Source of the DNA: Bedellia somnulentella
Taxonomy: Eukaryota; Arthropoda; Insecta; Lepidoptera; Bedelliidae
Length of the DNA: 64,000 nucleotides
Direction of reading: 5' to 3'
Assembly: GCA_963576735.1 (NCBI GenBank)
Contig: OY755197.1
Coordinates: 2,988,501 to 3,052,500, forward strand
Part shown: piece after piece, positions 4,601-54,286 of the stretch
Position numbering within the stretch: the stretch's first letter is position 1
Layout: the number at the start of each line of letters is the position of its first letter
Made by a program: the position numbers and the translations under genes
The notes under the pieces: generated by a model
Databases searched by the model: none
Seen by the model: only the letters and a program-made list of their open reading frames with translations
Told to the model about the DNA's origin: nothing

Positions 4601-4607
4601 TTTCCTT

Positions 4608-6095: not shown

Positions 6096-6600
6096 TGATA
6101 TTCTCTATCTAATAACTGCTCTAAGGTTACATTAATTTTACTTTGGTTTTCGACCAACTGAGATAAAACATTATTATGTTTAGTCATCCAATCTTTACTA
6201 AGACTAATATGGTTATTAAATTCTGAGACTACCTTGTTCTGGTTTTTCTGTAAGAAATCTATGGCTTCATTAAACTTTAATGCGTCGGTGTAATCTAAAT
6301 TTCCTGTAATGCTTTTTACCACTGATCCAAGTCCATCGAGTAAACCTCTTTTCATACGGTTTGGCTCTAGAGACTTTAAATGTTTCAATGCACTGTCAAG
6401 TTTACTAGTCAAGTAATTAATTTGTAATTCGTAAAGTGATAAAGTATTATTACTAAGTCGATTTTTGTAGGTCTGTAACTGATTCTTTAAAGTTATAATG
6501 TTATTCGTAATATCATCTAGTTTAATATACTGTATAAAATTATGATAATGAGTAGTAAGTCTTGATAACCCTAACTTATAAGGTAAGAGTCCAATCCGTC
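6096..6600 (-). pseudogene. env: Provirus env, N-terminal part
   Basis: The open frame from about 6585 down to the LINE junction contains a furin-type site (RMKR), immediately followed by a glycine-rich fusion-peptide-like stretch. A heptad-rich helical region comes next, as in errantivirus and baculovirus F proteins. No signal peptide is evident. In this class env is normally made from a spliced RNA, and a TTTAG acceptor-like site sits just after the pol stop. The frame is cut by the LINE at 4608-6095. Confidence 0.85.
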
Positions 6601-6610
6601 TGCTAAACTC

Positions 6611-8400
6611 TCAAGTTTTATCTCCTGAGTCAACGCCAGAGGGACCGTCATTATCGTCAGAATCCTGTAACAATTTATTACTTTTAGGGGTTCGTTTGAG
6701 TCGAGATTTGGCTATGGGGCCGCGTTTCTTGGAAGTATATATATGTATGGGTAAGTCTGCTAAAACTATGTAATTGGTAAAACGAGGTGCTGTTTTTTGT
6801 CGAGCTGCTAGAGGATTTTTAATGAAAACTGGCTGTTGAGGTGAATACTGAACTTCTGGTTCTCGTGTTAGATTCCTGTTATCAATTAAGTTTGTGCGAT
6901 TAACTAGTGAAGATTCATTTATAATGTCGTATACCCTTTCCATTTGTTCTTTGTGGTTCTGGGTATACTGCTGCAAAAGATGTTCTGTAAAGTTAACGTC
7001 TTGGGGATCTCTAGGGTCAAAGTGACCATTTAATAACTCAAACGGTCTACATTTAGTGAAACTATGGATAGAGCTATTGTAGGCTATGAGAGCATATGGA
7101 ATTAAATTAATTATAGGTTCATCTTTTTGTTGTAATTTAAGAAGGCGTAAATGTTCTAAAATGGTTGAGTGGAAACGTTCTATGTTACCGTTATCATTGG
7201 GGGAATGGGCTAAGATTCTATGGTGATTAATCTTATGTAGACGGACAAATTCTGCAAATAACTGATTGGTGAATTCTGTTCCATTATCGGTGATGATGGT
7301 CATTGGAATACCATGATGGGTACAATAACGTAAAAGAGCTTGTAAAATGCTGATTGCGGTACCGTCTCGAAGATGATATGCTTGTCCGTATTTAGTAAAA
7401 ACGTCTATAAAGGTAACGTATTTCTCATTTTGAACTGTAAAGAGGTCCATATGAACTATTTCGAAGGGTTTTGTGGCAGGTGGTACAATGTTAAATTGTG
7501 GTCTAATGGGATTCCTATCATATTTTCCTTGTCCACAAACAGTACACTCATTAATATATTTAGTTATCTGGTCCTTTAATTTGGGCCAGTAATATCTTCT
7601 TGATAAAGCTAAGTATGTCTCGTTTATACCGCGGTGATTAGTTTTGCCATGGTGATAATTCCTAATAATATCTTTTACATTTTCTAATTCTTTTTTACAT
7701 AAAACTAAATTATATGAGGCACTTCTAAACGTTTCTTGTAAGATCGGTATGATTGAATACATTTCTAATGGAGGATTTATTAATAGCGCAGTTTTTATCT
7801 TGGGGTTCACATATTCTTTAATACAATCTATGATATCTCGTTGAAGGTCGGTCTGTAATAATTGAACAGCTATTCTAGTATGGGTTTCGAACGGTTTCGT
7901 AGTTACGGGTCGCCTTTTAACGTCTGGTACTATGGTTAAATACAGCTGTCTATGAAATTTGTTAAGGGGTTCATCTGTGATAGGGATCTCTAATATGGGA
8001 TTTTCTTTACTAGTGTGGACTGTTTCGGTAGTAGAATTAATATTTGAAGGTGCATGTTCAGATGGGTTGCCTTCAAGTGAACTCAATTCTTTTAAACTTT
8101 CTATCACACTATTGATCTCCTCATTATGAATTTCAACTCTTGAAAAGGCATCAGCAGTATGGTTAGAAATTATTTCTTTAGGAACAAAGATATCTGCATT
8201 GTGTGAATTAAAAGGTAAATTAACTATTTTTGAGCTATGGGATGGGATTAACTCTTCACAAAAGTTAACGTTTTGAAAATTAGACATATGAATGCTGTTA
8301 GAGGCATTGGATGTAGAAAGAATCTTGTTTTTCAAGTCTATTTTAGCTTGCCATTTTTCTAGGAGATCGATGCCAATAAGACCATCGAAGTAATTATGAA
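6611..8400 (-). pseudogene. pol: Provirus pol remnant: protease end joined to integrase, RT deleted
   Basis: The Met-initiated frame is 6611-8335, and the reading is open back to about 8400. At the start is the tail of a retropepsin (GLIGIDLL). About 45 codons later the sequence has the hallmark end of RNase H (ADAFSR), so the whole RT and nearly all of RNase H are missing with the frame kept. The integrase follows: an HHCC zinc finger (HHGKTNHRG...C..C), then the DDE core with D in HMDLF, D in IITDNGTEF and E in NGNIERFHS, and a basic C-terminus. It stops just before env. Defective for replication. Confidence 0.9.
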
Positions 8401-8420
8401 ATTTGTATATGAATAGTTTC

Positions 8421-8449
8421 GTGAACGTTTATGTTATGTTATGTTATGT
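8421..8449 (+). mobile_element. T-SINE tail, 29 bp only
   Basis: GTGAACGTTTATG plus TTATG repeats, identical to the T-SINE 3' end, sits exactly at the junction between the gag remnant and the protease remnant. It is either a minimal 5'-truncated insertion or filler at the deletion that removed the gag C-terminus and protease N-terminus. Confidence 0.7.
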
Positions 8450-13477: not shown

Positions 13478-13481
13478 AGCC

Positions 13482-13974
13482 CCCTTTGGAGTTTGTTTAT
13501 TTGTGTTACACTTGTAAATAAACAATTCAGTTATGTAGGTTTCCAGACCAGCTAGGAAGAGCAACCTTTTTAGTAGATACCGCGTGGTGTGAAACATAGA
13601 TCTCTTTCGCACTAACATAGTACAGTATATTTTAATCTCATTCTAACCGACAAAGTAACAATAAATTAACACTCGTGGTTCAGACGATGTTTCTCCCGAA
13701 TTAATACTGTTTGTTTATTTAACTAATAATCCTCGATTTACTTAATCCGTGCCTGCGTCACCCGCGTCACAGTACACAGACATAAAATGATCCATCCTTA
13801 TAAGTAACAGGTGTGAAGGGCTCCTTTTCTAAAGATAATTAATCACTTCATTATGAAACTCGGATAAATTAAGGCACACTTTTCATGTCGACGTAATTTT
13901 AGTACACGCATGAAGAAATATTGCTATTAAATTGACATTTTAACGTGTATTGCATGACTAGGTTTTACTTTACA
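13482..13974. other. No gene seen (shared with 34483-34960)
   Basis: AT-rich sequence resuming directly after the provirus and matching unit 2 closely. No domain-bearing frame on either strand. Confidence 0.5.
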
Positions 13975-14157
13975 TACATACATATACTCACGGCTATAAA
14001 TCCCTGAACGGGGTAGCCAGCCATAAATGTTTTTGGTGACGGGTCTCCAACCACATCGCCCAAAAATCACTTTAAAAGCCCCTATACCCCTAGTCGCCTC
14101 TTACGATCACCCACAGCTAGAAATGGGTAGTGTTATTCTAAGCCGACACTACACAGC
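13975..14157 (-). mobile_element. N-SINE
   Basis: Reverse-complement N-SINE running from the (CATA)n tail to the AGCCGACACTACACAGCC head. It is missing at the equivalent place in unit 2 (about 34965), so it inserted after the copies separated. Confidence 0.85.
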
Positions 14158-14254
14158 CAACTTTTACTTTCTGTTTACAAATTGAAGGAAATAGGAAATA
14201 TCTATTTATTTAATAGTGGAGCGAAGACTAAATAAATGATATACGTACATATGA

Positions 14255-14483
14255 TTGCCCAGTAGTGCTGGCTTGGAATGTCACCAGCCCTTTCTACCCA
14301 CGGGGGTGTTGTTAGAGACGACTAAGAGTAAAGGGTTTTTTAAGTGGTTTTCGGGCGATGTGATTTGTGTGGTCTTTGTCCCCTATCAACTTCCAAACAT
14401 GTCTGAGGAGTTTCTAGCTCTGAAGCTCTGGCTACCCACTTTTGGAATTTATGGCTGTGACTATGTGTGTGTATGTATGTAGT
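14255..14483 (+). mobile_element. N-SINE, diverged
   Basis: Head AGTAGTGCTGGCTT, internal GGGCGATGTG and a GTGTATGTATGTA tail. Also present at 35057-35283. The open frame across it is not a gene. Confidence 0.85.
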
Positions 14484-15631
14484 ATCATTAGTTGACTAAT
14501 CGATATTATAATAAAACTATTAACGTGGAATCCCATGCTATATTTATATCCAAGAAGTGTTCATGTCAATTACCCTTTTACACTCTTTTATATGACTAGT
14601 ATATAGAAATAAAGTCAATTTTGGAACCACGACTTTTTAGTTTTGAGAAAATATGAGGTTATAAAAGAACATCCCTGCTTTAATTTAGGCTAAAATATTT
14701 ACCCCCAGTCTTCCAAGGTTGTTATGAATATTTCAATTTACCTAAATGCCTTCGCAACACTCCACACAATCACTAATCATATTCACAAAACAGAACATTT
14801 CCTCTAAGTAAGTCGGCCATATTTGAACACTGGCGTCACAGGATGCCGCCAACTATGAGATATTTAAACTATTTTTCAACTAATCGACCTTACTACTATG
14901 TCAATAAAGTTCAAATTCCGCAAGCAAATACCGTAGCAATCATCTAATGCATGTTACATATTTATGATATCGAAGCAAAGAGCGATGATTGATGAATCAG
15001 TAATGCAAGCAAGTTTTGATCTTAATGTCAATGTAGTTATAAGGATAATAAAGAGTAGTATTGCTTGTGATGTTTGTTAAGGGTTGCTGAAATCGTAGTA
15101 CATTTGTTACTGAAAGGAAAGTCGAATGGTATTTCTTTCTTGCATTAGAGAGTATTAAACACTAACTTCACTAGCACTTGCAGATATAGTGGTAAATGAT
15201 TTGTCTTGAGTATGGAAAGTTCTGGTTCTAATCCGGTGTCGGTTTTATTGTTCCAATACAAACTTTGTGTTTTTTCTTAGGAAAATCGGCAAGAAAATTC
15301 TTTAGTATAGTTTGATCGTGGCCATTTGTACATAGCATATAATAATAGTGGGTTTTCTTATTGCTGTAATGGAATAATACAATTGATTTTCTATGAATAT
15401 TTCTAACCTTCACCAGTTATCGTTATCTATATAAAGCAAACTTTCGAAAAAGGCGTCTATGCCATCTAACTGCGTCTCGTGAGCTAGACATTAAAAGATG
15501 CAGCTAAAATGCTAAAAGTCAAATTTACAACACTTCACTCTTTGGATTAATTCATAAAAAAGACATCAGTATTCAAAAGCTGTTTTGGCCTGATATAAGA
15601 CCAACATTTAACTTCTTCGTTCCTCTCGTAC
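14484..15631. other. No gene seen (shared with 35284-36419)
   Basis: Unique-looking AT-rich sequence with no recognised gene; the short minus-strand frame 15228-15413 has no family features and is broken in unit 2. Confidence 0.5.
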
Positions 15632-15832
15632 TACTAAGGCGACTGAGGGTTTGGGGCTTTTTAATGTGGTTTTTGGGCGATGGGGTTGGAGACCCATCAC
15701 CAACGATACTTTATTTCTACCATCTGGTCCCCTATCAACTACCAATTGCGGCTGAGGATTTTTTCATTCTGAAGCTCTGGCTACCGATTTTAGGGATTTA
15801 TAGCCGTGAGTATATGTATCTATGTATGCTAT
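15632..15832 (+). mobile_element. N-SINE, 5' truncated
   Basis: Contains the GGGGTTGGAGACCCATCACC segment and the GTGAGTATATGTAT tail. Orthologue at 36420-36612. Confidence 0.85.
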
Positions 15833-16156
15833 ATAAACGACTTCAGAATTTAGACATTTTTTTCGCCTGCATAAGACCCACACTAACTCCTCCATTTCCC
15901 TGATAGTGCGGAAAAAATCAGGAGAAGAAAAAGTATCTATTTATTTAATGTAATTGATGCAGAGTATGTGCAGTACGTCTGTTTGTATTGTCGCAGTTCG
16001 CGGAATCCGAATAAATGAGCTAGTGATAAATAAAACTTAACGCGTCTCAAAATTGCGTTCCGAATGTTTTTAAAGTTATTTTGTGTTGATGCAAGTTGCA
16101 GGCCGAACAAGTGTGTTCGGTTTTGTTAAATGTGTCCGGTTTTGTTCATTTTTACA

Positions 16157-16394
16157 TAGATATACTCACGGCTATAAATCCCTCAAAAGAGTAGGCAGAG
16201 CTTGAGAATAACAAATTCCTTAACCAACTTTGGAATTTAAGTGAGTATAAGATTATAAACATAAAGGTTGGTGGTAACGGGTCTCCTACCGCATCACCCA
16301 ATAATGCCTTCAAAAGTTCCAATACCTTTAGTCGTCTCTTACGATCACCCACGGAAAGAAATAGGTGGTGCTATTATAAGCCGAAACCTTACAG
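16157..16394 (-). mobile_element. N-SINE
   Basis: Reverse complement, with the tail at 16157 and the head at 16394. Orthologue at 36927-37166. Confidence 0.82.
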
Positions 16395-17384
16395 CTCTCA
16401 TTTGTGCTTATACATTAATGTTTTCGTTTGGATGTTCGGCTTACTAATTTTATAGCTCTAGTTCATATTTTCCCAAGTGGTAACGATAGATGAGGCTCAA
16501 TTATTATATTTTTGTTCTAATTGTCCTTTATTGCCCAATGTATTCTTCTCTTGAAGTCCCAAGCATCAAGCGAATTATTAACTCTCAAACTCAGTCTCAC
16601 TATTATTAAATTATATTATTTTTGTTATAACCGCTGGTATAATGTTATTACTACAAATGATTAATATAGCACTAAAAAGTAATTATTGCATTTGTTTGAG
16701 GTCAAATTTCTTTGCCCTATGTGTTTATTTGCCCTATATATGAGGTGGGAGCTTAATTTCGATGCTACCCCTTTCTGGAATTTATAGTATGTATGCTATT
16801 TATTTATTTATACGATTTTTCATAGGAAGGAAAGTGCTAGCCGGAAGGTGCATATCCAAACATAAATCTGATAAATAATATTTGTACATCTTTTTACAAA
16901 AAAAAAGATATGTTATTAATTCTTCTTTTCTGAGCGTACACTATACCTAATCTAATTAAAACTTGTGATTACATTCAGATGTGATTTGGCTCTTGAGTAA
17001 TAAATACTTAAACATCCATCGCAATACATATTTAAGTAAAATGTATATCGCAATATACTTTGACAATTGTATTGTGCAACAAAAGACCTTAGTCATGAAT
17101 TTTGTTTTAAAATAAATAGAACTTCGCTATTGTATACGTATCTTATATTCGTACTTTGCCTGCAGCATTCTCGTTTATTTTTTTGCTTCTCTCACCGAGA
17201 GTAAATTCAGTTGGCACTAATATTTAACCCTTTAGTTTACTTTGTAAAACAAACACACTCTCTGTAATGTTTACATACTATAAAGTTTTTATTTCTTTTA
17301 ACATACAAACGTATATAAAAATCGGTTTTATTCAAATGATGTTATACTCGAAACACTCGTTAATTGTAGGTAGGACTCAAATAC
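16395..17384. other. No gene seen; holds the empty site of the tRNA-like array
   Basis: The single uninterrupted AATTATTGCATTT near 16683 corresponds to the duplicated target flanking 37471-38839 in unit 2. Near 17211-17218 the single GTTGGCAC is the empty site of the P-like element 39446-40889. Confidence 0.7.
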
Positions 17385-17560
17385 TCAAACGTTCACACCG
17401 CATATCGCCGAAGGGGTGGCAGAAGTACCTACTTCTACTTCTTAACTTAAGTACCCACGTTTTGCTTAGAGGGTTTACTCACGTGATACGGGGCAGGCCT
17501 ATCGTCGTTTTGCACCAATACACTGTACTTTAGAAAAGACTAATTGGTGTAGGCCCGACA
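17385..17560 (-). mobile_element. T-SINE, 5' truncated
   Basis: Reverse-complement tail and body with the GCCGAAGGGGTGGCAGAAG segment. Orthologue at about 41068-41240. Confidence 0.8.
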
Positions 17561-17632
17561 TGTGATTTAAACCCACGCTTGTCAGCATGATAGGCGTTGT
17601 TCTACAGACTGAATTTACAACACATGGTTGTT

Positions 17633-17937
17633 AAAATAAAATAAATAAAATTCATTTAATTCAGACTATTTTGTACGGTCCATAGTCCAACTTAAAGTTA
17701 ACAAAACTAATAATTAAGACAGAAAAAATAAAAAGGAAGACAAAAGCACAACACATAATCAACATTTATAAACATTATATAAAAGCTAATTTAAATATCG
17801 GCCACAAGCAGCACCTGGAACATGTGCGTACACACGCACCCAGTGACTGGCGAGTGGACAGTCTGGCCTCGCACTAATAGTCTTCAGGATGATGTTGGAA
17901 CTTCCACGCATTTGGCGCAACAAGGAAGCGATCCGCT
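17633..17937 (-). pseudogene. Rex1/CR1-like LINE, 3' fragment
   Basis: Absent from unit 2 (joined at about 41318). Read on the minus strand it encodes a short piece of the LINE C-terminus (SLLRQMRGSSNIILKTISAR), comparable to the ends of 4762-6048 and 47223-47573. An AT-rich 3' UTR with an AAATAAA-type tail follows. Confidence 0.75.
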
Positions 17938-18242
17938 TAAGCTTCGCGATGTCAAATGGGAGCGAAGTGGTTGTCGAGTCCTCACTAGGACAGTTTTATT
18001 ACACAAGACTGGCCAGTATTGTAGGGTTCCTGAGTTATTGTAGTAAGTGTGTTTCCCAAGGACTTACATGGGAAACTTTTAAGGGTGATCATTCCTCAAT
18101 AGCAACATCTATCTGAATTTTTTCTTCATTATAACCTGGTCCTCGATGGCTTTGATTATCGTGCCAATTTTGGTGTGGTGATCGGATTGACGTTTTAGGA
18201 AGAGTTCTGTGACAAGCCTTATACAAAATGTAAGACATATAC

Positions 18243-25553: not shown

Positions 25554-25655
25554 TCTATACTAATATTATAAAGCTGAAGAGTTTGTTTGTTTGAACGCTA
25601 GGATCTCAGGAACTGCTGAATCAAATTGAAAAATTCTTTTTGTAATACTAATATT
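25554..25655 (+). mobile_element. Dispersed repeat, 5' end
   Basis: CTATACTAATATTATAAAG followed by GTTTGTTTGTTTGAACGC is a style seen at the edge of a very common lepidopteran repeat. It starts exactly where similarity to unit 2 ends. Confidence 0.5.
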
Positions 25656-25946
25656 AATAAATTTCTTCGCTTAATTCCGCTAAATAATACCTGCAGTCTT
25701 CATGCAACATGCACTGTGCACCGCCCGCCCTTCCACTTACAAGAAATCGAAAAGCAGACAATGCACCACACACACACCCGCAAGCGAAAACCACAGGCAA
25801 CCACAAACATGCGACGCGTTTCGACTCAACACGAGTCATTGACGAGCAGTTAGTAGACAGTTCGGCAGCTGACCACCGAGTGCCGGTCATACGATTTGGC
25901 GGTTATATTTATAGGCCAGGCTCCCCACTCCCCCACCCAAAGAACA

Positions 25947-27378
25947 TCAATGACGAGTGACTATATTATTGGAAAAAATTGACAAAAGTGGGGAAACGGT
26001 GTAGCCCAGCTGTTCATTCAGCAGTGCAACGGAATTATCATTATCATATCTGGAGATTTCAAGTTTCTCTAAAAGACATAATCTTAATCCCTTATTACAA
26101 GTATGTAAAATCTCCAGATTATGATTATCGGGGAGAACGTGTCCAGTATCCAATAGATGTTTCGCAAAGTGAGACCTTTCTGGATGGTCGTTTCTGAATG
26201 CTGCCACGTGCTCCCCGTATCTTGTTAGAAAACTTCTACCAGTTTGCCCAATATAGACGCTGTTGCATTCAGGACAAACAATTTTGTAAACACCAGATTG
26301 TCTGTGTTTATCTAATTTCTCTTTTTGATTACATAAATAACGTTTCAAACTATTGTTTGTTCTGAACGCAACTTTAATACCAAACCCTTTAAGCGTCTTT
26401 GAAATCTTTTCAGAAATCGGACCAACATAGGTGAGACTGGACTTCATGCGGTCCAGTTTTTCAGGTGGTATAACATATAAGAGTCTGTTCACCATGTTGG
26501 TCCGTTTTCTTGTAATTAGTCTGTCTATTAATTGCTTGGTGTAACCGTTTGCAACAGCTATTTGGTAAATAGTACTTAATTCTTTATTGTAATTAGAAGG
26601 TGATAATGGAACTGTTAGCAAACGGTGTACATAGCAATGAAAAGCTGCAAGCTTGTGTTGCCAAGGATGGCAAGAAGATGCGGGGATTACTGTATCAGTC
26701 TGTGTAGGCTTTCTATAAATCTCAAAAACATGCTTATTTCCTGACCTTGTTATTTTAAGATCGAGGAAATTGAGAGATCCGTCCTGTTCCTTCTCTAACT
26801 TGAATTTAATTTTAGGATGTATTCTATTTAAAATTTGAACGAAACTATCGAGCTGCCTATATGTACCTGTCCAGCATACAATTATGTCATCGACATATCT
26901 ATAGTAATAAAGTATATTACTCCTCCCAACAATGTTGTTACGCTCAAAATTATCCATAAAAATGTCAGCCATCAAGGGACTCAATGGAGAACCCATTGCC
27001 AGACCTTCTCTCTGTTGGTAGAAATAATTATCAAACATGAAATAATTTTGCTGCATACAGATGGAAGTAAGCCTTGATAGCTGGCATCTTTCCTCCGGAT
27101 GTAGTCGCTGAGTTACCATGAATTCTGAGATGAAACGTAAGCAATCTTTATATGGTACGTTTGAAAACAGACTTTCTACATCCAGAGAAACGAGCTTGGC
27201 ATTGCAAGGAAGAACAACATCCTTTATTTTGTCAATAAGATCCAAACTGTTTTTTAAAGTGAAAATCGGATTAAAATTAGTCTTAGCTTTCAAAATGGCG
27301 TTAAGTTGTTTTGCTAAATTGTATGCCGGTGCAGCTACATAAGAAACAACAGGACGGATCGGAATATTATCTTTGTGA
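25947..27378 (-). CDS. Penelope-like RT with GIY-YIG endonuclease (5' end in gap)
   Basis: About 476 codons are readable up to the gap. The RT part has SLDVESLFSNVP (motif A), QREGLAMGSPLSPLMADIF (motif B), YRYVDDIIV near 26886-26909 (motif C) and LNFLDLKI. The GIY-YIG endonuclease is C-terminal: SGVYKIVCPECNSVYIGQTG with R and the EH further on, at roughly 26215-26300, and a cysteine pair in the usual PEC position. This order (RT, then GIY-YIG) defines canonical Penelope elements. The C-terminal stop is at 25947. On the far side of the gap a start MSSDQKQKVTKC at 27633 is in a compatible orientation and may be the true N-terminus. No internal stop in the readable part. Confidence 0.92.
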
Positions 27379-27578
27379 NNNNNNNNNNNNNNNNNNNNNN
27401 NNNNNNNNNNNNNNNNNNNNNNNNNNNNNNNNNNNNNNNNNNNNNNNNNNNNNNNNNNNNNNNNNNNNNNNNNNNNNNNNNNNNNNNNNNNNNNNNNNNN
27501 NNNNNNNNNNNNNNNNNNNNNNNNNNNNNNNNNNNNNNNNNNNNNNNNNNNNNNNNNNNNNNNNNNNNNNNNNNNNNN
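27379..27578. other. Assembly gap (200 N)
   Basis: Exactly 200 N, so probably a placeholder of unknown true size. It interrupts the Penelope-like ORF. Confidence 0.99.
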
Positions 27579-28720
27579 CATTTTTGACAAATTTTAAACA
27601 TTTCGTCACTTTTTGTTTTTGATCACTAGACATTTTTAGTGTTAAATATGTATTTCAACCAACAAATTAGAAAAAAATCATTATTGCCAAAAGGATACAC
27701 TAAGTGTATTCCTAATAAATGTTAATTTACAAGTAATATTCTTTAAAACTCTGAGAAAATAGTTAAAAACAACACTGTCAATATTAGGACAGTGACTAAG
27801 TAGGAACTCAATATGTACGAAATGGAATTATAAAGTTAAGTTCACAGCGCTACAAATATCACGACATAATTATTTAGAATCATTCAGTCATTGTTATTGT
27901 ACTATATTTTTATTAATACTAAAGAAATAATTTTAGTTAAATTATTTAACTATAATCATATACCTATCAGTCTAGAATTTCAATTCAGACTTACATAGAA
28001 AATTGTAATCAAGTGTGAATCTAAAAGAAAGGCATAAAGTGTTAATATACGGGTGTTTCAGGAACTTGAAATAAGTCAGGATTAGTAGGTGAAATAATAA
28101 AAATCTGACTTTTTTTTTCGACTCCACATAGACACTAGCGCTGTTGGAACTACGTTATAAATTTGTATGGGGAGTCGAAAAAAAAAGTCAGATTTTTATT
28201 ATTTCACCTACTAATCCTGACTTATTTCAAGTTCCTGAAACACCCGTATATTAACACTTTATGCCTTTCTTTTAGATTCACACTTGATTACAATTTTCTA
28301 TGTAAGTCTGAATTGAAATTCTAGACTGATAGGTATATGATTATAGTTAAATAATTTAACTAAAATTATTTCTTTAGTATTAATAAAAATATAGTACAAT
28401 AACAATGACTGAATGATTCTAAATAATTATGTCGTGATATTTGTAGCGCTGTGAACTTAACTTTATAATTCCATTTCGTACATATTGAGTTCCTACTTAG
28501 TCACTGTCCTAATATTGACAGTGTTGTTTTTAACTATTTTCTCAGAGTTTTAGAGAATATTACTTGTAAATTAACATTTATTAGGAATACACTTAGTGTA
28601 TCCTTTTGGCAATAATGATTTTTTTCTAATTTGTTGGTTGAAATACATATTTAACACTAAAAATGTCTAGTGATCAAAAACAAAAAGTGACGAAATGTTT
28701 AAAATTTGTCAAAAATGATA
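27579..28720. repeat. Long palindrome, arms about 535-555 bp
   Basis: The sequence 27579-28113 is the near-exact reverse complement of 28166-28718. A spacer of roughly 50 bp lies between GACTCC and GGAGTC. The left arm runs into the gap. Each arm carries the same short frame starting MSSDQKQKVTKC. Penelope-like elements often carry an inverted partial copy at the 5' end, but a long palindrome beside a gap can also be an assembly or fold-back artefact. Confidence 0.9.
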
Positions 28721-29045
28721 TTTTATATGATAATTATAACAATTATGTTGTTAAATTTCAAATATAAGATGTGTCTTGATAACAATCAAAATTGTTTTGT
28801 TACATGAAATTCCGAATTGTTTGATTTACATCCATTTGTGTAATGTGACTAAATGGAACTTTGCTTAGTCATGGCTACACAAAAAGTGATTTTAATCAAA
28901 TAATTACAGTCTAAATGTGTTTTAATTAAAAATAATTGATACTATATACCTTCTTTTACCGTCTAAAGTTAAGTATATTCAAGATTAACGTTGTACTTAA
29001 TTAACGTTTCCATTTCGAACATGTCGCCTTGAAATGAAAAAAGCT
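28721..29045. other. No gene seen
   Basis: AT-rich; nothing recognised. Confidence 0.5.
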
Positions 29046-33830: not shown

Positions 33831-35056
33831 AATCCACTTCATTCAAAAAAACTATTTTCAAAATATAGTCCCTGACCTCATAAATAAGCGCATCGAAAAG
33901 TTTCAACAATAACTTTTTCCTGAACCCTGTAAAATTCAATGAACCAGTGGTCCTATGCCTTGTTATATAAGCTTTACATAAATTCTTCGAAGTATATTAT
34001 TATTTCTTTTAAAGTCTCCATTTGGCGAGGTGCTTTATACTGTAAAATGTTCGTTTTAATGCCTTTATTTTTAGTCTTCCTTTGCTGCCGGCCAAACCTT
34101 CTCTCCACAATATGGGTCATAGCCTATTCTATATATACGTAGATCAGGGTTGCAGAAAGGTTGCCACATCTCCGGCTAATTAGTCGTCGGAGTCCAACAT
34201 TTGTTATAATGAGTGATGATTTGACACCCCTAATCTGACCCGACCCGCTTACAATAGATTTTTGTCGACAAGGGCCGGACTCATAAGTCTTTTTTATTTG
34301 GAGTTTACTATTGAGTTTATTGCGTCAGCAAAATAGTGTTGGCTTAGAAACGCACTTGCCGATTTCTTCCCACTTAATAAATGGAGCATTTTATTTTGAT
34401 AGCAATTTTGGCGTGTTGGTAGTTATTTCACAATATTTTCCTTCCTTTCAACAGTGCGTAAGTAATTTCTAATTCTGAAGCCCCCTTTGGAATTTGTTTA
34501 TTAGTGTTACACTTGTAAATAAACAATTAAGTAATGTTGGTTTCCAGCCCGGCTAGGACGAGCAACCTTTTAAGTAGATACCGCGTGGTGTGAAACATAG
34601 ATCTCTTTCGCACTAACATAGTACAGTATATTTTCATCTCATTCTTACCGACAAAGTAACAATAAAATAACACTCGTGCTTCAGACGATGTTTCTCCCGA
34701 ATTAATACTGTTTGTTTATTTAACTAATAATCCTCGATTTACTTAATCCGTGCCTGCGTCACCCGCGTCACAGTACACAGACATAAAATGATCCATCCTT
34801 ATAAGTAACAGGTGTGAGGGGCTCCTTTTCTAAAGATAATTAATCACTTCATTATGAAACTCGGATAAATTAAGGCACACTTTTCATGTTGACGTAATTT
34901 TAGTACACGCATGAAGAAATATTGCTGTTAAATTGACATTTTAACGTGTATTACATGACTAGGTTTTACTTTCTGTTTACAAATTGAAGGAAATAGGAAA
35001 TATCTATTTATTTAATAGTGAAGCGAAGACTAAATAAATGATATACGTACATATGA
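33831..35056. other. No gene seen; empty site of the provirus
   Basis: CTAATTCTGAAGCCCCCTTT at 34470-34489 is the uninterrupted target of the provirus; the AGCC at 34479-34482 occurs once here. Confidence 0.85.
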
Positions 35057-35283
35057 TTGCCCAGTAGTGCTGGCTTAGAATGTCACCACCCCTTTCTACC
35101 CACGGGGGTGTTGTTAGAGGCGACTAAGAGTAAAGGGTTTTAAAAGTGGTTTTCGGGCGATGTGGTTGGTGTGGTCTTTGTCCCCTATCAACTTCCAAAC
35201 ATGTCTGAGGAGTTTCTAGCTCTGAAGCTCTGGCTACCCACTTTTGGAATTTATGGCTGTGACTATGTGTGTGTATGTATGTA
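35057..35283 (+). mobile_element. N-SINE (orthologue of 14255-14483)
   Basis: Head, body and tail as in unit 1. Confidence 0.85.
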
Positions 35284-36419
35284 GTATCATTAGTTGACTA
35301 ATCGATATTATAATAAAACTATTAACGTGGAATCCCATGCTATATTTATATCCAAGAAGTGTTCATGTCAATTACCCTTTTACACTCTTTTATATGACTA
35401 GTATATAGAAATAAAGTCAATTTTGGAACCACGACTTTTTAGTTTTGAGAAAATATGAGGTTATAAAAGAACATCCCTGCTTTACTTTAGGCTAAAATAT
35501 TTACCCCCAGTCTTCCAAGGTTGTTATCAATATTTCAATTTACCTAAATGCCTTCGCAACACTCCACACAATCACTAATCATATTCACAAAACAGAACAT
35601 TTCCTCTAAGTAAGTCGGCCATATTTGAATTGAACACTACACTGGCGTCACAGGATGCCGCCAACTATGAGATATTGAAACTATTTCTCAACTAATCGAC
35701 CTTACCACTATGTCAATAAAGTTCAAATTCCGGAAGCAAATACCGTAGCAATCATCTAATGCATGTTACATATTTATGATATCGAAGCAAAGAGCGATGA
35801 TTGATGAATCAGTAATGCAAGCAAGTTTTGATCTTAATGTCAATGTAGTTATAAGGATAATAAAGAGTAGTATTGCTTGTGTTGTTTGTTAAGGGTTGCT
35901 GAAATCGTAGTACATTTGTTACTGAAAGGAAAGTCGAATGATATTTCTTTCTCGCATTAGAGAGTATTAACAACTAACTTCACTAGCACTTGCAGATATA
36001 GTAGTAAAAGATTTGTCTTGAGTATGGAAAGTTCTGGTTCGAATCCGGTGTCGGTTTTATTGTTCTAAAACAAACTTTGTGTTTTTTCTTAGGAAAAATC
36101 GGAAAAAAAAATCTTTAGTATAGTTTGATCATGGCTATTTGTATATAATAATAGTGGGTTTTCTTATTGCTGTAATGGAATAATACAATTAATTTTCTAT
36201 GAATATTTCTAACCTTCACTAGTTATCGTTATCTATATCAAGCAAACATTTCGAAAAAGGCGTGCCATCTAACAGACATTAAAAAATGCAGCTAAAAGGC
36301 TAAAATTAAAATTTATAACACTTCACTCTTTGGATTAATTCATAAAAAAGACATCAGTATTCAGAAGCTGTTTTGGCCTGATATAAGACCAACATTTAAC
36401 TTCTTCGTTCCTCTCGTAC
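35284..36419. other. No gene seen
   Basis: Counterpart of 14484-15631. Confidence 0.5.
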
Positions 36420-36612
36420 TACTAAGGCGACTGAGGGTATGGGGCTTTTTAATGTGGTTTTTGGGCGATGCGGTTGGAGACCCATCACCAACGATTCTTT
36501 ATTTCTACCATCTGGTCCCCTATCAACTACCAAATGCGGCTGAGGATTTTTTCATTCTGAAGCTCTGGCTACCGATTCTTGGGATTTATAGCCGTGAGTA
36601 TATGTATCTATG
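36420..36612 (+). mobile_element. N-SINE (orthologue of 15632-15832)
   Basis: Same truncated copy. Confidence 0.85.
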
Positions 36613-36926
36613 TATGCTATATAAACGACTTCAGAATTTATACGTTTTTTTCGCCTGCATACTCCTCCATTTCCCTGATAGTGCGGAAGAAAACAGGAGA
36701 AGAAAAAGTATCTTTTTACTTAATGTAATTGATGCAGAGTATGTGCAGTACGTCTGTTTGTATTGTCGCGGTTCGCGGAATCCGAATAAATGAGCAAGTG
36801 ATAAATAAAACTTAACGCGTCTCAAAATTGCGTTCCGAATGTTTTTAAAGCTATTTTGTTTTGATGCAAGTTGCAGGCCGAACAAGTGTGTCCGGTTTTG
36901 TTGAATGTGTCCGGTTTTGTTCATTT

Positions 36927-37166
36927 GTACATACATATACTCACGGCTATAAATCCCTCAAAAGAGTAGGCAGAGCTTGAGAATAACCAATTCCTTAACC
37001 AACTTTGGAATTTAAGTGAGTATAAGATTATAAACATAAAGGTTGTTGGTAACGGGTCTCCTACCGCATCGCCCAATAATGCCTGCAAAAGCTCCAATAC
37101 CTTTAGTCGTTTCTTACGAACACCCACGGGAAGAAATAGGGTGGTGCTATTATAAGCCGAAACCTC
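36927..37166 (-). mobile_element. N-SINE (orthologue of 16157-16394)
   Basis: Same copy, few differences. Confidence 0.82.
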
Positions 37167-37776
37167 ACAGCTCTCATTTGTGCTTATACATTAATGTTTT
37201 AGTTTGGATGTTCGGCTTACTAATTTTATAGCTCTAGTTCATATTTTTCCCAAGCGGTAACGAAAGATGAGGCTTAATTATTATATTTTTGTTCTAATTG
37301 TCCTTTATTGCCCAATGTTTTCTTCTCTTTAAGTCCCAAGCATCAGGCGAATTATTAACTCTCAAACTCAGTCTCACTATTATTAAATTATATTATTTTT
37401 GTTATAACCGCTGGTATAATGTTATTACTACAAATGATTAATATAGCACTAAAAAGTAATTATTGCATTTAATTTAATGTTTTTTGACATGAATTCCTCA
37501 TGTGGGGATTATTACTCATAACCCCGCCAGTGTCGAAATTTTTCTTTCCTTTAATAACATCTTTTATTTATGAGTAATAATCCCCACATGAGGAATTCAT
37601 GTCAAAAAACATTAAATTATGTGATAGTTAGGCGTTTCCAACATTTGCATTCTATCTGAAAAGGTAGACAAGTGGCCGTCCGAATTAGTTAAAATTCGGA
37701 GGTAGGAAACGCAAACACTACTTGAACGTGTAAAAAAGAAACAAAGGATAGAGAAATTTCGCGCTGGATGCCAACT

Positions 37777-37849
37777 GACACTGTAGCTCAGTTGGCAGAG
37801 CGACGGGGGCGTATACCCGAAGGTCGCGGGTTCGAACCCCGCCAGTGTC
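37777..37849 (+). tRNA. tRNA-like sequence, array copy 1
   Basis: A seven-base acceptor stem (GACACTG with CAGTGTC), a D arm with GCTC/GAGC and AGTTGGCA loop, and a T arm GCGGG-TTCGAAC-CCCGC. The A box (TAGCTCAGTTGG) and B box (GGTTCGAACCC) are perfect. The anticodon arm is irregular: four pairs CGGG/CCCG around an eight-base loop GGCGTATA that contains GTA. Spacing resembles tRNA-Tyr with one extra base. Probably a tRNA-derived module rather than a decoding tRNA. Confidence 0.65.
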
Positions 37850-38095
37850 GAAAAAAATTTTTCTTTCCTTTAATAACATCTTTTATTTATGAGTAATAAT
37901 CCCCACATGAGGAATTCATGTCAAAAAACATTAAATTATGTGATAGTTAGGCGTTTCCAACATTTGCATTCTATCTGAAAAGGTAGACAAGTGGCCGTCC
38001 GAATTAGTTAAAATTCGGAGGTAGGAAACGCAAACACTACTTGAACGTGTAAAAAAGAAACAAAGGATAGAGAAATTTCGCGCTGGATGCCAACT

Positions 38096-38168
38096 GACAC
38101 TGTAGCTCAGTTGGCAGAGCGACGGGGGCGTATACCCGAAGGTCGCGGGTTCGAACCCCGCCAGTGTC
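38096..38168 (+). tRNA. tRNA-like sequence, array copy 2
   Basis: Identical to copy 1, 319 bp downstream. Confidence 0.65.
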
Positions 38169-38414
38169 GAAAAAAATTTTTCTTTCCTTTAATAACATCT
38201 TTTATTTATGAGTAATAATCCCCACATGAGGAATTCATGTCAAAAAACATTAAATTATGTGATAGTTAGGCGTTTCCAACATTTGCATTCTATCTGAAAA
38301 GGTAGACAAGTGGCCGTCCGAATTAGTTAAAATTCGGAGGTAGGAAACGCAAACACTACTTGAACGTGTAAAAAAGAAACAAAGGATAGAGAAATTTCGC
38401 GCTGGATGCCAACT

Positions 38415-38487
38415 GACACTGTAGCTCAGTTGGCAGAGCGACGGGGGCGTATACCCGAAGGTCGCGGGTTCGAACCCCGCCAGTGTC
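38415..38487 (+). tRNA. tRNA-like sequence, array copy 3
   Basis: Identical to copy 1, 319 bp further on. Confidence 0.65.
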
Positions 38488-38729
38488 GAAATTTTTCTTT
38501 CCTTTAATAACATCTTTTATTTATGAGTAATAATCCCCACATGAGGAATTCATGTCAAAAAACATTAAATTATGTGATAGTTAGGCGTTTCCAACATTTG
38601 CATTCTATCTGAAAAGGTAGACAAGTGGCCGTCCGAATTAGTTAAAATTCGGAGGTAGGAAACGCAAACACTACTTGAACGTGTAAAAAAGAAACAAAGG
38701 ATAGAGAAATTTCGCGCTGGATGCCAACT

Positions 38730-38802
38730 GACACTGTAGCTCAGTTGGCAGAGCGACGGGGGCGTATACCCGAAGGTCGCGGGTTCGAACCCCGCCAGTG
38801 TC
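38730..38802 (+). tRNA. tRNA-like sequence, array copy 4
   Basis: Identical, 315 bp further on; the preceding spacer lacks four A residues. Confidence 0.65.
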
Positions 38803-38892
38803 GAAATTTTTCTTTCCTTTAATAACATCTTTTATTTATAATTATTGCATTTGTTTGAGGTCAAATTTCTTTGCCCTATGTCCGTTCATGAT

Positions 38893-39025
38893 ATTTATTA
38901 AACAACAACCTTTATTTGCATGCCTTTTCCTCACTTAACTTCCAAAAGTGGCTGAGGAGGTGGGAGCTTAATATCGATGCTACGTCTTTCTGGAATTTAT
39001 AGCCGTGAGTATATGTATGTATGCT
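38893..39025 (+). mobile_element. N-SINE, 5' truncated
   Basis: ACAACCTTTATTTGCATGCC to GTGAGTATATGTATG. In unit 1 most of it has been deleted (near 16730-16795). Confidence 0.75.
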
Positions 39026-39445
39026 ATTTATTTATTTACACGATTTTTCATAGGAAGGAAAGTGCTAGCCGGAAGGTGCATATCCAAACATAAATCTGAT
39101 AAATAATATTTGTACATCTTTTTACTTAAAAAGAATATGTTATTAACTCTTCTTTTCCGAGCGTACACTATACCTAATCTAATTAAAACTTGTGATGACA
39201 TTCAGATGTGATTTGGCTCTTGAGTAATAAATACGTAAACATCCATCGCAATACATATTTAAGTTAAAATGTATATCGCAATATACTTTGACAATTGTAT
39301 TGTGCAACAAAAGACCTTAGTCATGAATTTTGTTTTAAAATAAATAGAACTTCGCTATTGTATACGTATCTTATATTCGTACTTTGCCTGCAGCATTCTC
39401 GTTTATTTTTTTGCTTCTCTCACCGAGAGTAAATTCAGTTGGCAC

Positions 39446-40889
39446 CTTTGATTATGAACACTATAGATAGAGCGATGTTACGTCATCCATTTTAAAAAGA
39501 GAAGCCCTTATTTAAGTTCTTATATGTTAAAAAGAGACACAAAATCTTTATTGTCATCTCTATCGCGTAACCCGTTTTGTTGATGTCACGCTTTTAAAGC
39601 TTGACAAACAAAGCGTCGACTTGTGAGCGATTTTGGTTTTCTTTTGAATTTGAGAAAGATTTTATTCATTTGTATATTGTTATTGTGATAAAAGAGACTC
39701 CATTAGTCAAACTTATTATTTAGTGAGGTATGGTTGGGTGTAGCGTGCTTGGCTGCGGAAGCCGCAGCGAAAAACACATCGAAGGATTGACTTTCTGAAG
39801 TGAGTGAGTTTTTTAATGTTTTTCTACAGATAAATACATAATAAATACATTGCGCGATCAGAAAAAAAGTGATTCAAATGTTAATTACGTTGAACTAGAT
39901 TACTAGCATTTTCTTTAGTTATTTTGAGCAATTTTTTAATAGCATAACCTAAAAATATGCAGTATCTCAGTGTTCCCATAATTCACGTTTTTCATCCTAC
40001 CCTGTCGTTAGGGTAAAATTTTCAAATTAGTAAACTGATGTTAATGAGTGAGTATATTATGAATTTCGTCGCGCTATAGCGACGCTGAATGATTTCCAAT
40101 TGTTATCTACGGAATTAGTAAGTAATAAATTTGTTATATTTATTTAATTTCTTCGTATTCATTACAGTTTTCCTAAAGACCCGAATCTACGAGAAAAATG
40201 GATTGCGGCCACTGGAAGATGCAATTGGAAATCAACCAAATATAAAATACTTAGATGTACGAATACATCATCTTTTGAAAAATGTGACTGAAATAGACGA
40301 ATGAATTCGAAATTTTCACACGAAACTGATTTTGTTTAAAGGTCAATAGTAAATAATGCAATAAAACTCATGTACAAAATAGTGCTGTCTTTTATTTTTC
40401 AAAATACAAACATAGACCCCACTATACCCATGATGACCCGTATGATATTTACATAACTTGCACTTATGGAACAGCTGTTTTTTTTTGTCCAGTAACAAAG
40501 TTAGTCCCGTACAAAAATTTATTCGTAATCATGGGAAGATTCATCCCTGATAGTTAGTAAAATGCTTTAGATTCCACGGTGTATTAAACATCAGTATAAA
40601 TGGTAAAATTAAACAAAAAAGATTGTATAATACTAGGAGCAAGTATGTATAATTATATGATTGCAGGAAATAATATAGTAAACAGTGAACCTTTACAATA
40701 AATAAAACGACGTAACAATAAATTGACGTAATCAATTTTAAATTAAAAAGTAGCTTTTAGAATGGTGAGTATACTATTTTGGGGTAATTGTTTTCTAGTG
40801 ATCGCAACATTACAGGGAAAAATATTGCTATCTAAAAGAGGTACTCTCCCGTTGCATTATGACTCTGTCTATAGTGTTCATAGTCAAAG
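39446..40889. mobile_element. P-like DNA transposon, internally deleted
   Basis: Terminal inverted repeats of about 27 bp with three mismatches begin CTTTGATTATGAACACTATA on the left; the right end has C instead of T at two of the mismatches. The eight-base target duplication is GTTGGCAC (39438-39445 and 40890-40897), and the empty site is in unit 1 near 17211. THAP-type exons at 39730-39797 and 40168-40291 and the 8-bp duplication together point to the P superfamily. At 1444 bp it lacks a transposase core. Confidence 0.83.
39730..40291 (+). pseudogene. THAP domain of P-like transposase, two exons
   Basis: Exon 1 (39730 to about 39797) reads MVGCSVLGCGSRSEKHIEGL, with the CX4C pair that opens a THAP zinc finger. 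After an intron of roughly 370 bp, an acceptor CATTACAG leads into exon 2 (40168-40291) with FPKDPNLREKWIAATGR, the conserved FP, W and basic positions of THAP. The later C-x2-H of the finger is not intact (the segment reads ILRCTNTSSFEKCD, then stop), so the finger is probably dead. P-element transposases carry this domain at the N-terminus. The exon 1 donor is ambiguous. Confidence 0.75.
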
Positions 40890-41067
40890 GTTGGCACTAA
40901 TATTTAACCCTTTAGTTTACTTTGTAAAACAAACACACTCTCTGTAATGTTGTTTACATACTATAAAGTTTTTATTTCTTTTAACATACAAACGTATATA
41001 AAAATCGGTTTTATTCAAATGATGTTATACTCGAAAAACTCGTTAATTGTAGGTAGGACTCAAATAC

Positions 41068-41240
41068 TCAAACGTTCACACCGCATATCGCCGAAGGGGT
41101 GGCAGAAGTACCTACTTTTACTTCTTAACTTAAGTACCCACGTTTTGCTTAGAGAGTTTACTCACGTGATACGGGGCAGGCCTATCGTAGTTTTGCACCA
41201 ATACACTATACTTTAGAAAAGACTAATTGGTGTAGGCCCG
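41068..41240 (-). mobile_element. T-SINE (orthologue of 17385-17560)
   Basis: Same truncated copy. Confidence 0.8.
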
Positions 41241-41691
41241 GCACGTGATTTAAACCCACTCTTGTCAGCATGATAGGCGTTGTTCTACAAACTGTATTTA
41301 CAACACATGGTTGTTAAGATTCGCGATGTCAAATTGGAGCGAAGTGGTGAATGATTGTCGAGTCCTCACTAGGACAGTTTTATAACACAAGACTGGTCAG
41401 TACCTACGTGCACCTTGAACGATGCTATTTTTCGTTTGTAGGGTTGCTGAGTTGTTGTAGTAATAGTGTTTCTTAAAGACTTACATGGGAATCTTTTAAG
41501 GGTGATCATTTCTCAATAGCAACATCTATCAGAATTTTTCGTGCCAATTTTGGTGGTGATTGGATTGACGGTTTAGGAAGAGTTCTGTGACCAGCCTAAT
41601 ACAAAATGGGGGGTAAATTGAGTTTCACTCCAATCACGAACGTGACATATACCCGGTGCCATATTTATATATGAGCTGTGATGATAATAAT

Positions 41692-48775: not shown

Positions 48776-49067
48776 ATTTAGTAACTTTCCCCGTTTTCCC
48801 AAAATTTCCTAAAATTCCCCTACATTACACTGCTGAAAAGTACACTATAACCTGCCCAGGAGTATGAAAAATAATTCTACCAAGTTTCGTTAAAATTCGT
48901 CGAGTAGTTTTTGTTTCCATAAGGAACATACAAACCGACAGACAGACAGACAGACTGATTAATTTTTGGCATCAGTATCGATCACTGATCACCCCCTGAT
49001 AGTTATTTTGAAAATATATTTAATGTACAGAATTGACCTCTCTACAGATTTATTATAAGTACCTATA

Positions 49068-49358
49068 AATAAAAGATGTTATTAAAGGAAAGAAAAATTT
49101 CGACACTGGCGGGGTTCGAACCCGCGACCTTCGGGTATACGCCCCCGTCGCTCTGCCAACTGAGCTACAGTGTCAGTTGGCATCCAGCGCGAAATTTCTC
49201 TATCCTTTGTTTCTTTTTTTACACGTTCAAGTAGTGTTTGCGTTTCCTACCTCCGAATTTTATTTTATTTAGGAGGTAGGAAACGCAAACACTACGATTG
49301 ATGATTATTTATGAGTAAAATAATCCCCACATGAAGAATTCATGTCAAAAAACATTAA
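49068..49358 (-). mobile_element. tRNA-like element, dispersed single copy with 13-bp TSD
   Basis: Flanked by ATAAGTACCTATA (49055-49067 and 49359-49371). It has the same two ends as the 37471-38839 array: AACATCTTTTATTT at the 3' end and AATGTTTTTTGACATG at the 5' end, here on the minus strand. It includes one full tRNA-like module and a 24-bp internal fold-back around GGAGGTAGGAAACGCAAAC (49230-49300). Confidence 0.85.
49102..49174 (-). tRNA. tRNA-like sequence, dispersed copy
   Basis: All 73 bases equal the array copies, including the odd eight-base anticodon loop, although the flanks differ. Confidence 0.65.
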
Positions 49359-49986
49359 ATAAGTACCTATAGATAATGCGTAAAAAATACATTGAATGTT
49401 CTTTGAGGATGGCAATGTTTGGCCGTTTTGAAATTTTTCTTTGTATTTAGGCAAGGTGATGATGGCTAGATGTCATCTTATCATATCAACTGTATCGAAT
49501 TATCAAATAACAAGTTTTGAGCACTAGTGTACTCTACTTCTTTTAATGGACGGGTGTTCAGAGTACCCGTTTTTTGCCGTGAATTTACATAATAGACGGA
49601 AAGCCTTTTGATCGCACTATTGCAGCGATATTTACTAGTAAACTTCATAATGAAGTCATTTATGTATAGGATTTTTCAGAATTTGCAATCATGCCTTTCT
49701 GTAGCGGAGGCAGTGCTCTTTTCCACTTAGTTGCCAGGGTGGGAAATGAAAAATCTAGGAATGTATACGGGTATCACTAGTTCGAAACGATGCTTCTTGT
49801 TATCATTATATATGTTCCCAAAGTATCTTTAGTGAAAGAGTAACAAATGATTTAGGGTTACTTCCTTTTTATAGTTTCGTGGTATTTTTATTTTCTCTAT
49901 ATTTACATGAAATAGAATCATCACAGGCTTAATCCAAGGTAATTATATGCTACTCTCGCGTACATATTGAGTATTTTGATTATAAT

Positions 49987-53352: not shown

Positions 53353-53769
53353 GTTATCCATGGTAATAGTTTTAGTTTAATGAAAATAACACAGACTTAT
53401 ACTGTTTTCACAGCAACTGCAGGCGTGCGTAACTTGAAAGATAAACAGGGAAGCCGTACCGACCAAACTTGGATAACTCAGTTAATATGTTGAAAGTTAT
53501 CATTGAATATTGCGTCACCGGATTCCCACAAGACACAACAATAGCGAACTTCTCCTGACAAGTTTTGATCCGTGGTTGATCGTACACTTTGAGGGAACAT
53601 TGTTTTAAACTTATTTAATTACTTTTGGAACTATCGATTTTGAAATGACGCGAAATATGTCTGAAGCAAGGTATGAAATAATGAAATTTATTTTAGTCAA
53701 TCTTAATTGAGTTAACAAACAATGTAGTAAACAAATATGAATGCATAACATAATTTGGTTTTGCATGAA
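53353..53769. other. No gene seen
   Basis: No recognised feature. Confidence 0.45.
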
Positions 53770-53905
53770 AACCTCATGTGGGGATTAATACTAATCCATT
53801 AAGCAAATAAAAAAAAAAAACAACAACAGCGGGACTCAAACCCACGACCGTATACCCGAGGTTGTGGGTTCGGATCCCACTGGTATCGAAAATTTTTATT
53901 AGCTT
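53770..53905 (+). mobile_element. tRNA-like element, old diverged copy
   Basis: An ATGAAAACCTCATGTGGGGA start, then a folded-back T arm and GTATACCCGAGGTTGTGGGTT, then CCCACTGGTATCGAAAATTT. Same family as the array but eroded. Confidence 0.6.
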
Positions 53906-53933
53906 AATTCATTAGTGAGTTAACTAATTTAAT

Positions 53934-54103
53934 GTTTTTTGACATGAATTCCTCATGTGGGGATTATTACTCATAAATAAAAGATGTTATTAAAGGAAAG
54001 AAAAATTTCGATACTATATATACGTACTACGTATACGCCGAAGGTCGCGGGTTCGAACCCCGCCAGTGTCGAAAATTTTCTTTCCTTTAATAACATCTTT
54101 TAT
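53934..54103 (+). mobile_element. tRNA-like element, short copy with long TSD
   Basis: A 22-bp direct repeat beginning TTAGTGAGTT lies at 53912-53933 and 54104-54125; its last five bases may belong to the element's 5' end. The 5' fold-back crosses the unit-to-unit junction of the tandem array (ATTACTCAT joined to AAATAAAAGATGTTATT). The 3' half of the tRNA-like module and the fixed 3' end follow. Confidence 0.8.
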
Positions 54104-54286
54104 TTAGTGAGTTAACTAATTTAATCAAATATCAGGTCACGCCCACGAGATGGCAACTATGGCTATGAGGCATTTAAAGTTATTCTTGTGTGACGATCTT
54201 CGGGACCAATAAACAGGATATTTTATTTAACTATTTCTTCCATATCAACTTCCAATGGTAATTCAGTTACTAATACTAAAAAGAGC

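Follow-up and report, generated by a model that had tools for sequence, protein, structure and literature searches.

The stretch of genome analysed here, called the window, comprises 64,000 nucleotides of the lepidopteran Bedellia somnulentella (assembly GCA_963576735.1, contig OY755197.1, positions 2,988,501 to 3,052,500 of the forward strand). It carries an insert of short, tRNA-bearing units at positions 37471-38838. The insert spans 1,368 bp and is flanked by 14-bp direct repeats of TAATTATTGCATTT, the target-site duplications (TSDs), of which the left copy lies at 37457-37470 and its exact match at 38839-38852. It is two-armed and organised head to head, with a 49-bp inverted arm followed by 4.2 direct units of 315 or 319 bp. 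The original prediction, made from the letters alone, had described a 1369-bp tandem array of tRNA-like units between 13-bp repeats. The array, the repeats and a tRNA fold in each full unit are real, but both lengths needed correction and the inverted arm sets the insert apart from a plain array.

Positions within the unit are numbered from the base that follows TTTTATTTA (u1). Two putative start sites of a reverse transcriptase (RT), placed from the ends of insertions, are referred to as site 1 (near u315) and site 2 (near u49). The inverted arm (37471-37519, minus strand) is the reverse complement of the unit head (blastn, 100% identity); it begins at site 2 and ends near u313. The direct arm (37520-38838, plus strand) contains a partial unit (37520-37570) and four full units (37571-37889, 37890-38208, 38209-38523 and 38524-38838) and ends at site 1, as delimited by Tandem Repeats Finder, unit alignment and blastn. 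At 37520-38839, Tandem Repeats Finder counts 4.2 repeats of a 319-bp unit, with 99% matches. The four full units differ only by a 4-base run of A, so that one pair is 319 bp long and the other 315 bp. The interval from site 1 to site 2 (u1-49; 38524-38572, plus strand, in unit 4) is called the tail and carries TAATCCCCACATGAGG, a sequence that is present in families A, B and C of the element. Downstream of it, a three-way-junction RNA fold is predicted at u61-142 (38584-38665, plus strand, in unit 4), with a z-score of -7.75 against shuffles for the 90-nt stretch around the fold. The three-way junction occurs in every unit as a strong structure with a GAAA loop and has no Rfam match at E<=5. 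As had been predicted, the unit holds no protein gene: no stop-to-stop frame of at least 150 aa overlaps the array, and the open reading frame (ORF) of an autonomous Penelope-like element, with a telomerase-like RT and a GIY-YIG endonuclease, is absent from it.

The uninserted state of the locus is preserved elsewhere in the window. A segmental duplication pairs 13478-18230 with 34479-41608, mostly at about 95% identity and interrupted by insertions, and it is the source of the empty site. Here the 14-bp sequence occurs once (16680-16693); positions 37400-37470 equal 16623-16693 and 38839-38881 equal 16680-16722, both at 100%. A single site with both flanks matching perfectly in the duplicate argues for insertion of the piece in its entirety. 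The claims of an empty site near 16683 and of movement in one piece thus hold, and the single 14-bp site looks uninserted rather than like the product of a deletion.

Each full unit contains one tRNA-like module at about u207-279, near the unit 3' end. The covariance model RF00005 scores it at 55.1 bits (E 3.9e-9) and ARAGORN agrees. The modules lie on the plus strand at 37777-37850, 38096-38169, 38415-38488 and 38730-38803 in units 1 to 4. A module of this kind may plausibly serve as an internal promoter for RNA polymerase III (pol III). TTTTT follows 7 bases downstream of the tRNA in unit 1 and 3 bases downstream in unit 3, so that a pol III transcript must read through it to reach the RT start sites. 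The same two methods find a tRNA at about 49100-49175 on the minus strand. In relatives of the element the tRNA is weaker, with five matches of 30.9-47.2 bits in five of eight loci searched; ARAGORN calls the tRNA of family C a tRNA-Asn (loci L005 and L014).

Two further insertions had been reported in the window, and both are real. The second, at 49068-49358 on the minus strand and thus opposite in orientation to the array, has an exact TSD of 13 bp (49055-49067 / 49359-49371), or 18 bp if one mismatch is allowed. Its minus-strand direct arm ends at site 1, and its inverted arm, which is internally deleted, ends at site 2. The third, at 53934-54103 on the plus strand, has a TSD of 22 bp (53912-53933 / 54104-54125), the last bases of which could equally be element sequence. 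Its inverted arm runs from site 2 over a unit junction and its direct arm from the anticodon region of the tRNA to site 1. An inverted arm that spans a unit junction implies a template of at least parts of two units, or a circle. Adjoining this copy is a diverged relative of family B, with putative borders at about 53744-53911 and 9 bp shared at its ends; it consists of an inverted arm and the T-arm of a tRNA. As a control for chance repeats, 20,000 random segment pairs were drawn, of which 19,793 were kept; a shared word of at least 13 bp was found in 11 of those kept.

The element is abundant in the genome. In the 549-Mb genome, a 33-base motif of the tRNA is matched 7,387 times when as many as two mismatches are allowed, a count of motif matches that exceeds the number of insertions, and the reversed pattern has none. 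Exact tRNA and tail patterns have no match in the viral and GTDB collections. Copies were read in 20 flanking 10-kb stretches and in 30 three-kb loci at the start of contig C1, partly overlapping, so that the sample comes from a single part of contig C29 and from the beginning of C1; overlapping loci (e.g. L022/L023) were counted once. The resulting table holds 33 copies, of which 28 are two-armed (29 with L034, also two-armed) and four single-armed. Five old, one-armed or unclear copies (L017, L019, L020, L015:4887 and the one at 53744 in the window) were left out. By blast of the unit, the outer ends of the two-armed copies fall at u298-u16 (site 1) or u43-u61 (site 2), where the extreme positions belong to diverged family-C copies or to chance matches into the flank. 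The site-2 end lies about 50 nt beyond site 1.

A TSD of at least 11 bp borders the element ends in 24 of the 28 two-armed copies. The array has an empty site and the copies have TSDs, which distinguishes the family from satellite blocks that lack both. TSD lengths are 13 bp in ten copies, 12 bp in eight, 11 bp in two and 14, 15, 16 and 22 bp in one each, so that 18 of 24 are 12 or 13 bp long. Every one of these 24 copies has one site-1 and one site-2 outer end; under independence and equal odds for the two kinds of end, such a pairing has a probability of 0.5^24 = 6e-8. When the copies are set with site 1 on the right, GT follows the TSD in 12/24 (p = 1.4e-9) and AC precedes it in 10/24 (p = 3e-7), against a background of 5.6% in the loci. 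The target preference AC-[TSD]-GT is therefore a symmetric motif, as expected if a paired enzyme nicks each strand at N^GT and leaves a 12-13-nt 3' overhang. Of 18 insertions in which the arms were compared, four (L007, L029, L034 and L044) have a deviation from the reference unit that is common to both arms, in line with one RNA source for the two arms.

A Penelope-like element (PLE) is present in the same window. Part of it lies at 25644-27378 on the minus strand, with an RT domain identified by Pfam, a GIY-YIG-like C-terminus recognised by eye and a 3' end at its own site 1. Masked N occupies 27379-27578 upstream of it and is adjoined by a long palindrome, recognised by eye, at 27579-28740; MIR7504-like matches at 28087-28209 (Rfam, E<=5) fall on both strands of this palindrome and were rejected. 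The PLE family has many near-identical copies in the genome, several of them in tandem arrays with 2,760-bp spacing and 827-aa frames. The copy search listed at least 91 matches, with 90 of 1,049 candidates scored, and the best named matches of the PLE are mostly from Lepidoptera. At C10:19047861-19084431 a head-to-head Penelope array has at least 13 listed matches, mostly at 2,760-bp spacing; their equal scores and mostly 827-aa frames suggest recent activity or homogenisation. Head-to-head pairs of the PLE could be compared directly with the tRNA element. Seven of the eight pairs examined, with both ends fetched, have a TSD of 12-15 bp, and all seven combine one site-1 with one site-2 end. 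One end lies at -1 to -3, before the ORF-start border, and the other 38 to 48 bases past it. AC/GT occurs at 5 of 14 PLE flanks (p = 7e-4). These ends and TSDs match those of the tRNA element, which indicates that both carry the same scar in one genome. Elsewhere in the window, retroelement frames lie at 3474-8428 on the minus strand; they include an RT frame (4762-6108) and integrase domains (6611-8428). The best named matches of an RT frame in the window are from Phthorimaea and Plutella.

From these data we consider it very likely that the array is a non-autonomous, tRNA-bearing retroelement, made of a unit of about 315 bp, that was copied and inserted by PLE machinery. The retro-type mechanism offered by the original prediction is supported, although that prediction overlooked the Penelope-type two-armed scar, including the inverted arm itself, as well as the PLE part and the diverged relative at about 53744-53911. 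The tail of the unit would supply RT start signals, followed by the three-way-junction RNA and the tRNA-derived module. Transcripts spanning one or more units would arise, probably from the internal pol III promoter of the tRNA or by host read-through. A PLE protein would then bind the tail of about 50 nt and nick the two strands of the target, in many cases at an N^GT in each strand and 12-13 nt apart, leaving 3' overhangs. The same RNA species would serve as template at both target 3' ends, each priming a cDNA of its own, with site 1 used for one and site 2 for the other. The two antisense cDNAs would be of variable length, often halting in or near the tRNA, and would be joined head to head at short homologies. 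Fill-in of the overhangs by repair would yield TSDs of 12-13 bp.

This scheme has precedents in both the structure and the biochemistry of PLEs. Described PLE features include inverted pLTRs, partial tandem copies, a TSD and a tail that is optionally present at one of the inverted ends (PMC3846280). A PLE protein from Anolis is reported to start reverse transcription at two adjacent internal sites, the interval between them being termed the tail, and to cut and extend both strands with a preference for AT-rich DNA; its start sites showed no strand difference in bulk (PMC11167929). The scars in B. somnulentella may add to these data that each TSD-bearing two-armed insertion receives one site-1 and one site-2 start. 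The tRNA element thus resembles PLEs such as Penelope and Poseidon in its head-to-head inverted arm, its partial tandem units, its TSD, the tail at one of two ends and a pair of RT start sites separated by some 40-50 nt. It differs from them in the absence of an ORF, in a 315-bp unit as against 2,760 bp, in its tRNA module and in that no hammerhead was found.

Several observations count against such an origin. The Anolis enzyme favours 5'-ATT-3' (PMC11167929), as opposed to N^GT here, and the TSDs of rotifer PLEs, at 8-10 bp (PMC3846280), are shorter than the 11-16 bp of the tRNA element. No usable TSD was found for L026:4, which lies at a locus edge, or for L040:2072, the shared words of these two copies being 5-6 bp long; the candidate of L040:1827 is an 11-bp word located 22 bp outside the element end. 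L038 and the eighth PLE pair end at site 1 on both sides, the former without a usable TSD and the latter without any TSD, and the right end of L034 is unclear. The four single-armed copies (L002, L005, L025 and L050) end at site 2; of these, L005 alone has a longer TSD, of 10 bp. Differences confined to one arm occur in 12 of the 18 insertions compared and are read as later mutations. Finally, no PLE with a CCCCACATGAGG tail was found among those covered: the PLE family of the window has a different tail, and none of 120 PLE relatives (P0121-P0240, the listed part of 467 matches) has a tail-like N-terminus.

At L015:4887-4944 (minus strand) the CCCCACATGAGG tail is fused to a different tRNA-like body, which suggests, as a lead from a single copy, that the tail is the part read by the enzyme. 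The possibility that the tail encodes a PLE N-terminus (frame MSNNPHMR) was rejected: NPH occurs in 7 of the 120 relatives, at residues 130-571, and in none of them N-terminally. As a direct partner, the PLE of the window is ruled out by its differing tail. A decayed piece of a second, distant Penelope family lies at L010:3103-3723 (minus strand), with 42-45% identity in two pieces; it was likewise discarded as a partner, being of another decayed family and without the tail motif in L010.

How the number of units is set is a separate matter and is compatible with mobilisation by a PLE. It is possible, on a tentative assessment, that unit number reflects unequal crossing-over, as in the growth of satellites, rather than a multimeric template. 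A seven-unit array of the tRNA element on contig C1 (L049/L050, about 3188600-3190600) shows alternating X,Y,X,Y variants and nested private mutations, a pattern consistent with dimer-step growth of the array, either before it inserted or later. In the window, units 1 and 2 share the 4-base insertion and units 3 and 4 are without it. Against crossing-over, unit junctions lie inside short inverted arms (the copy at 53934, L024 and L046), which indicates that junction-spanning templates were copied.

Within PLE machinery, both arms might instead be made by a single self-primed (snap-back) cDNA, a route that we regard as improbable. Self-priming has been proposed for PLEs from palindromes at inverted junctions (PMC3846280), and the arm junctions of L036 and L043 do lie at a 10-bp palindrome, TGCCAACTGA/TCAGTTGGCA, which may help arm joining. 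However, no tail is included in a cDNA that starts at site 1, and a self-copy of that cDNA could not end at site 2; all 24 TSD-bearing copies have both kinds of end. The tail end needs a start of its own; the only escape would be a cDNA begun at site 2 whose copy halts at site 1 every time. The paired site-1 and site-2 ends thus favour two target-primed cDNAs, one per strand.

The original prediction had also likened the array to retrozymes, in which hammerhead ribozymes cut a multimer into units, and had suggested that RNase P and RNase Z might do the cutting at the tRNA. A tRNA-based retrozyme of this sort, with circularised unit RNAs as template, is in our judgement unlikely. The likeness is apt as anatomy. 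Animal retrozymes (type I hammerhead, non-LTR) are small tandem units without an ORF and are described as 170-400-nt RNAs with TSDs, where present, longer than 4 bp (PMC7229834). The unit size and tandem habit of the tRNA element are similar and its tRNA folds are intact. The element carries a tRNA in place of the hammerhead, of which Rfam cmscan found none in the window at the gathering threshold or at E<=5. The proposed processing is not supported. Inner cDNA ends were collected from both arms of 19 family-A insertions as BLAST ends, uncertain by a few bases; the copy at 49068 (internal deletion), L034, L038 and the family-C copies were omitted. Of these 38 ends, none lies at the RNase P border (u205-209) and one lies in u280-282. 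Three are at u279, beside the tRNA 3' end, but this position still belongs to the tRNA, as would suit an RT halted at the acceptor stem. A stop at m1A58 of the T-loop was also considered and set aside, with 3/38 inner ends at u265-267. Altogether 20 of the 38 inner ends fall within u207-279 and fit RT stops in the tRNA fold; the excess is no test, since many ends close to the start sites would be expected in any case. Additionally, multi-unit arms with intact tRNAs imply that the copied RNA had not been cut at the tRNAs, and the alternating variants and nested changes of L049/L050 are not expected from a one-unit circle copied repeatedly.

Least credible is an ordinary tRNA-derived short interspersed element (SINE) moved by a long interspersed element (LINE): its tRNA-derived body, AT-rich surroundings and 11-16-bp TSDs fit target-primed reverse transcription, and twin priming also yields 5' inversions, but LINE inversions start at many places, whereas here the second arm starts at a fixed place about 50 nt past the other end in 24/24 TSD-bearing two-armed copies, either genomic side may carry either site, the tabulated ends have no poly-A and PLE copies in the same genome bear the same scar. 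With tRNA-derived SINEs the element shares a tRNA module with an intact fold, non-autonomy and high copy number. Unlike them, it has the tRNA near the unit 3' end instead of the element 5' end, forms two-armed rather than colinear inserts and bears a PLE-type tail instead of a LINE tail.

Taken as a PLE-mobilised unit, the element also resembles the nonautonomous Penelope elements of heliconiine butterflies, which are described as short, PLE-related and lepidopteran (PMC6685494). In the portions of the openly licensed literature available, no description was found of a tRNA-bearing short unit with a Penelope-type scar. It seems reasonably probable that a class of short, tRNA-bearing elements, with thousands of copies in one insect genome, parasitises Penelope machinery through the tail of about 50 nt alone, and that Penelope-type insertion is a paired two-site reaction, with one start per target strand, rather than self-priming. 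How PLEs integrate is an open question, for which self-priming is an earlier proposal (PMC3846280), and in the in vitro study of the Anolis protein the steps on the second strand were still to be demonstrated (PMC11167929). Small copies whose ends can be read, numbering in the thousands, would provide a natural data set on this process; those sampled here speak for a reaction with two primers, in which each of the two adjacent sites is used for one start. PLEs would thereby join the machineries open to short elements with a tRNA, and the tail of about 50 nt is pointed to as an RNA signal that PLE proteins may recognise.
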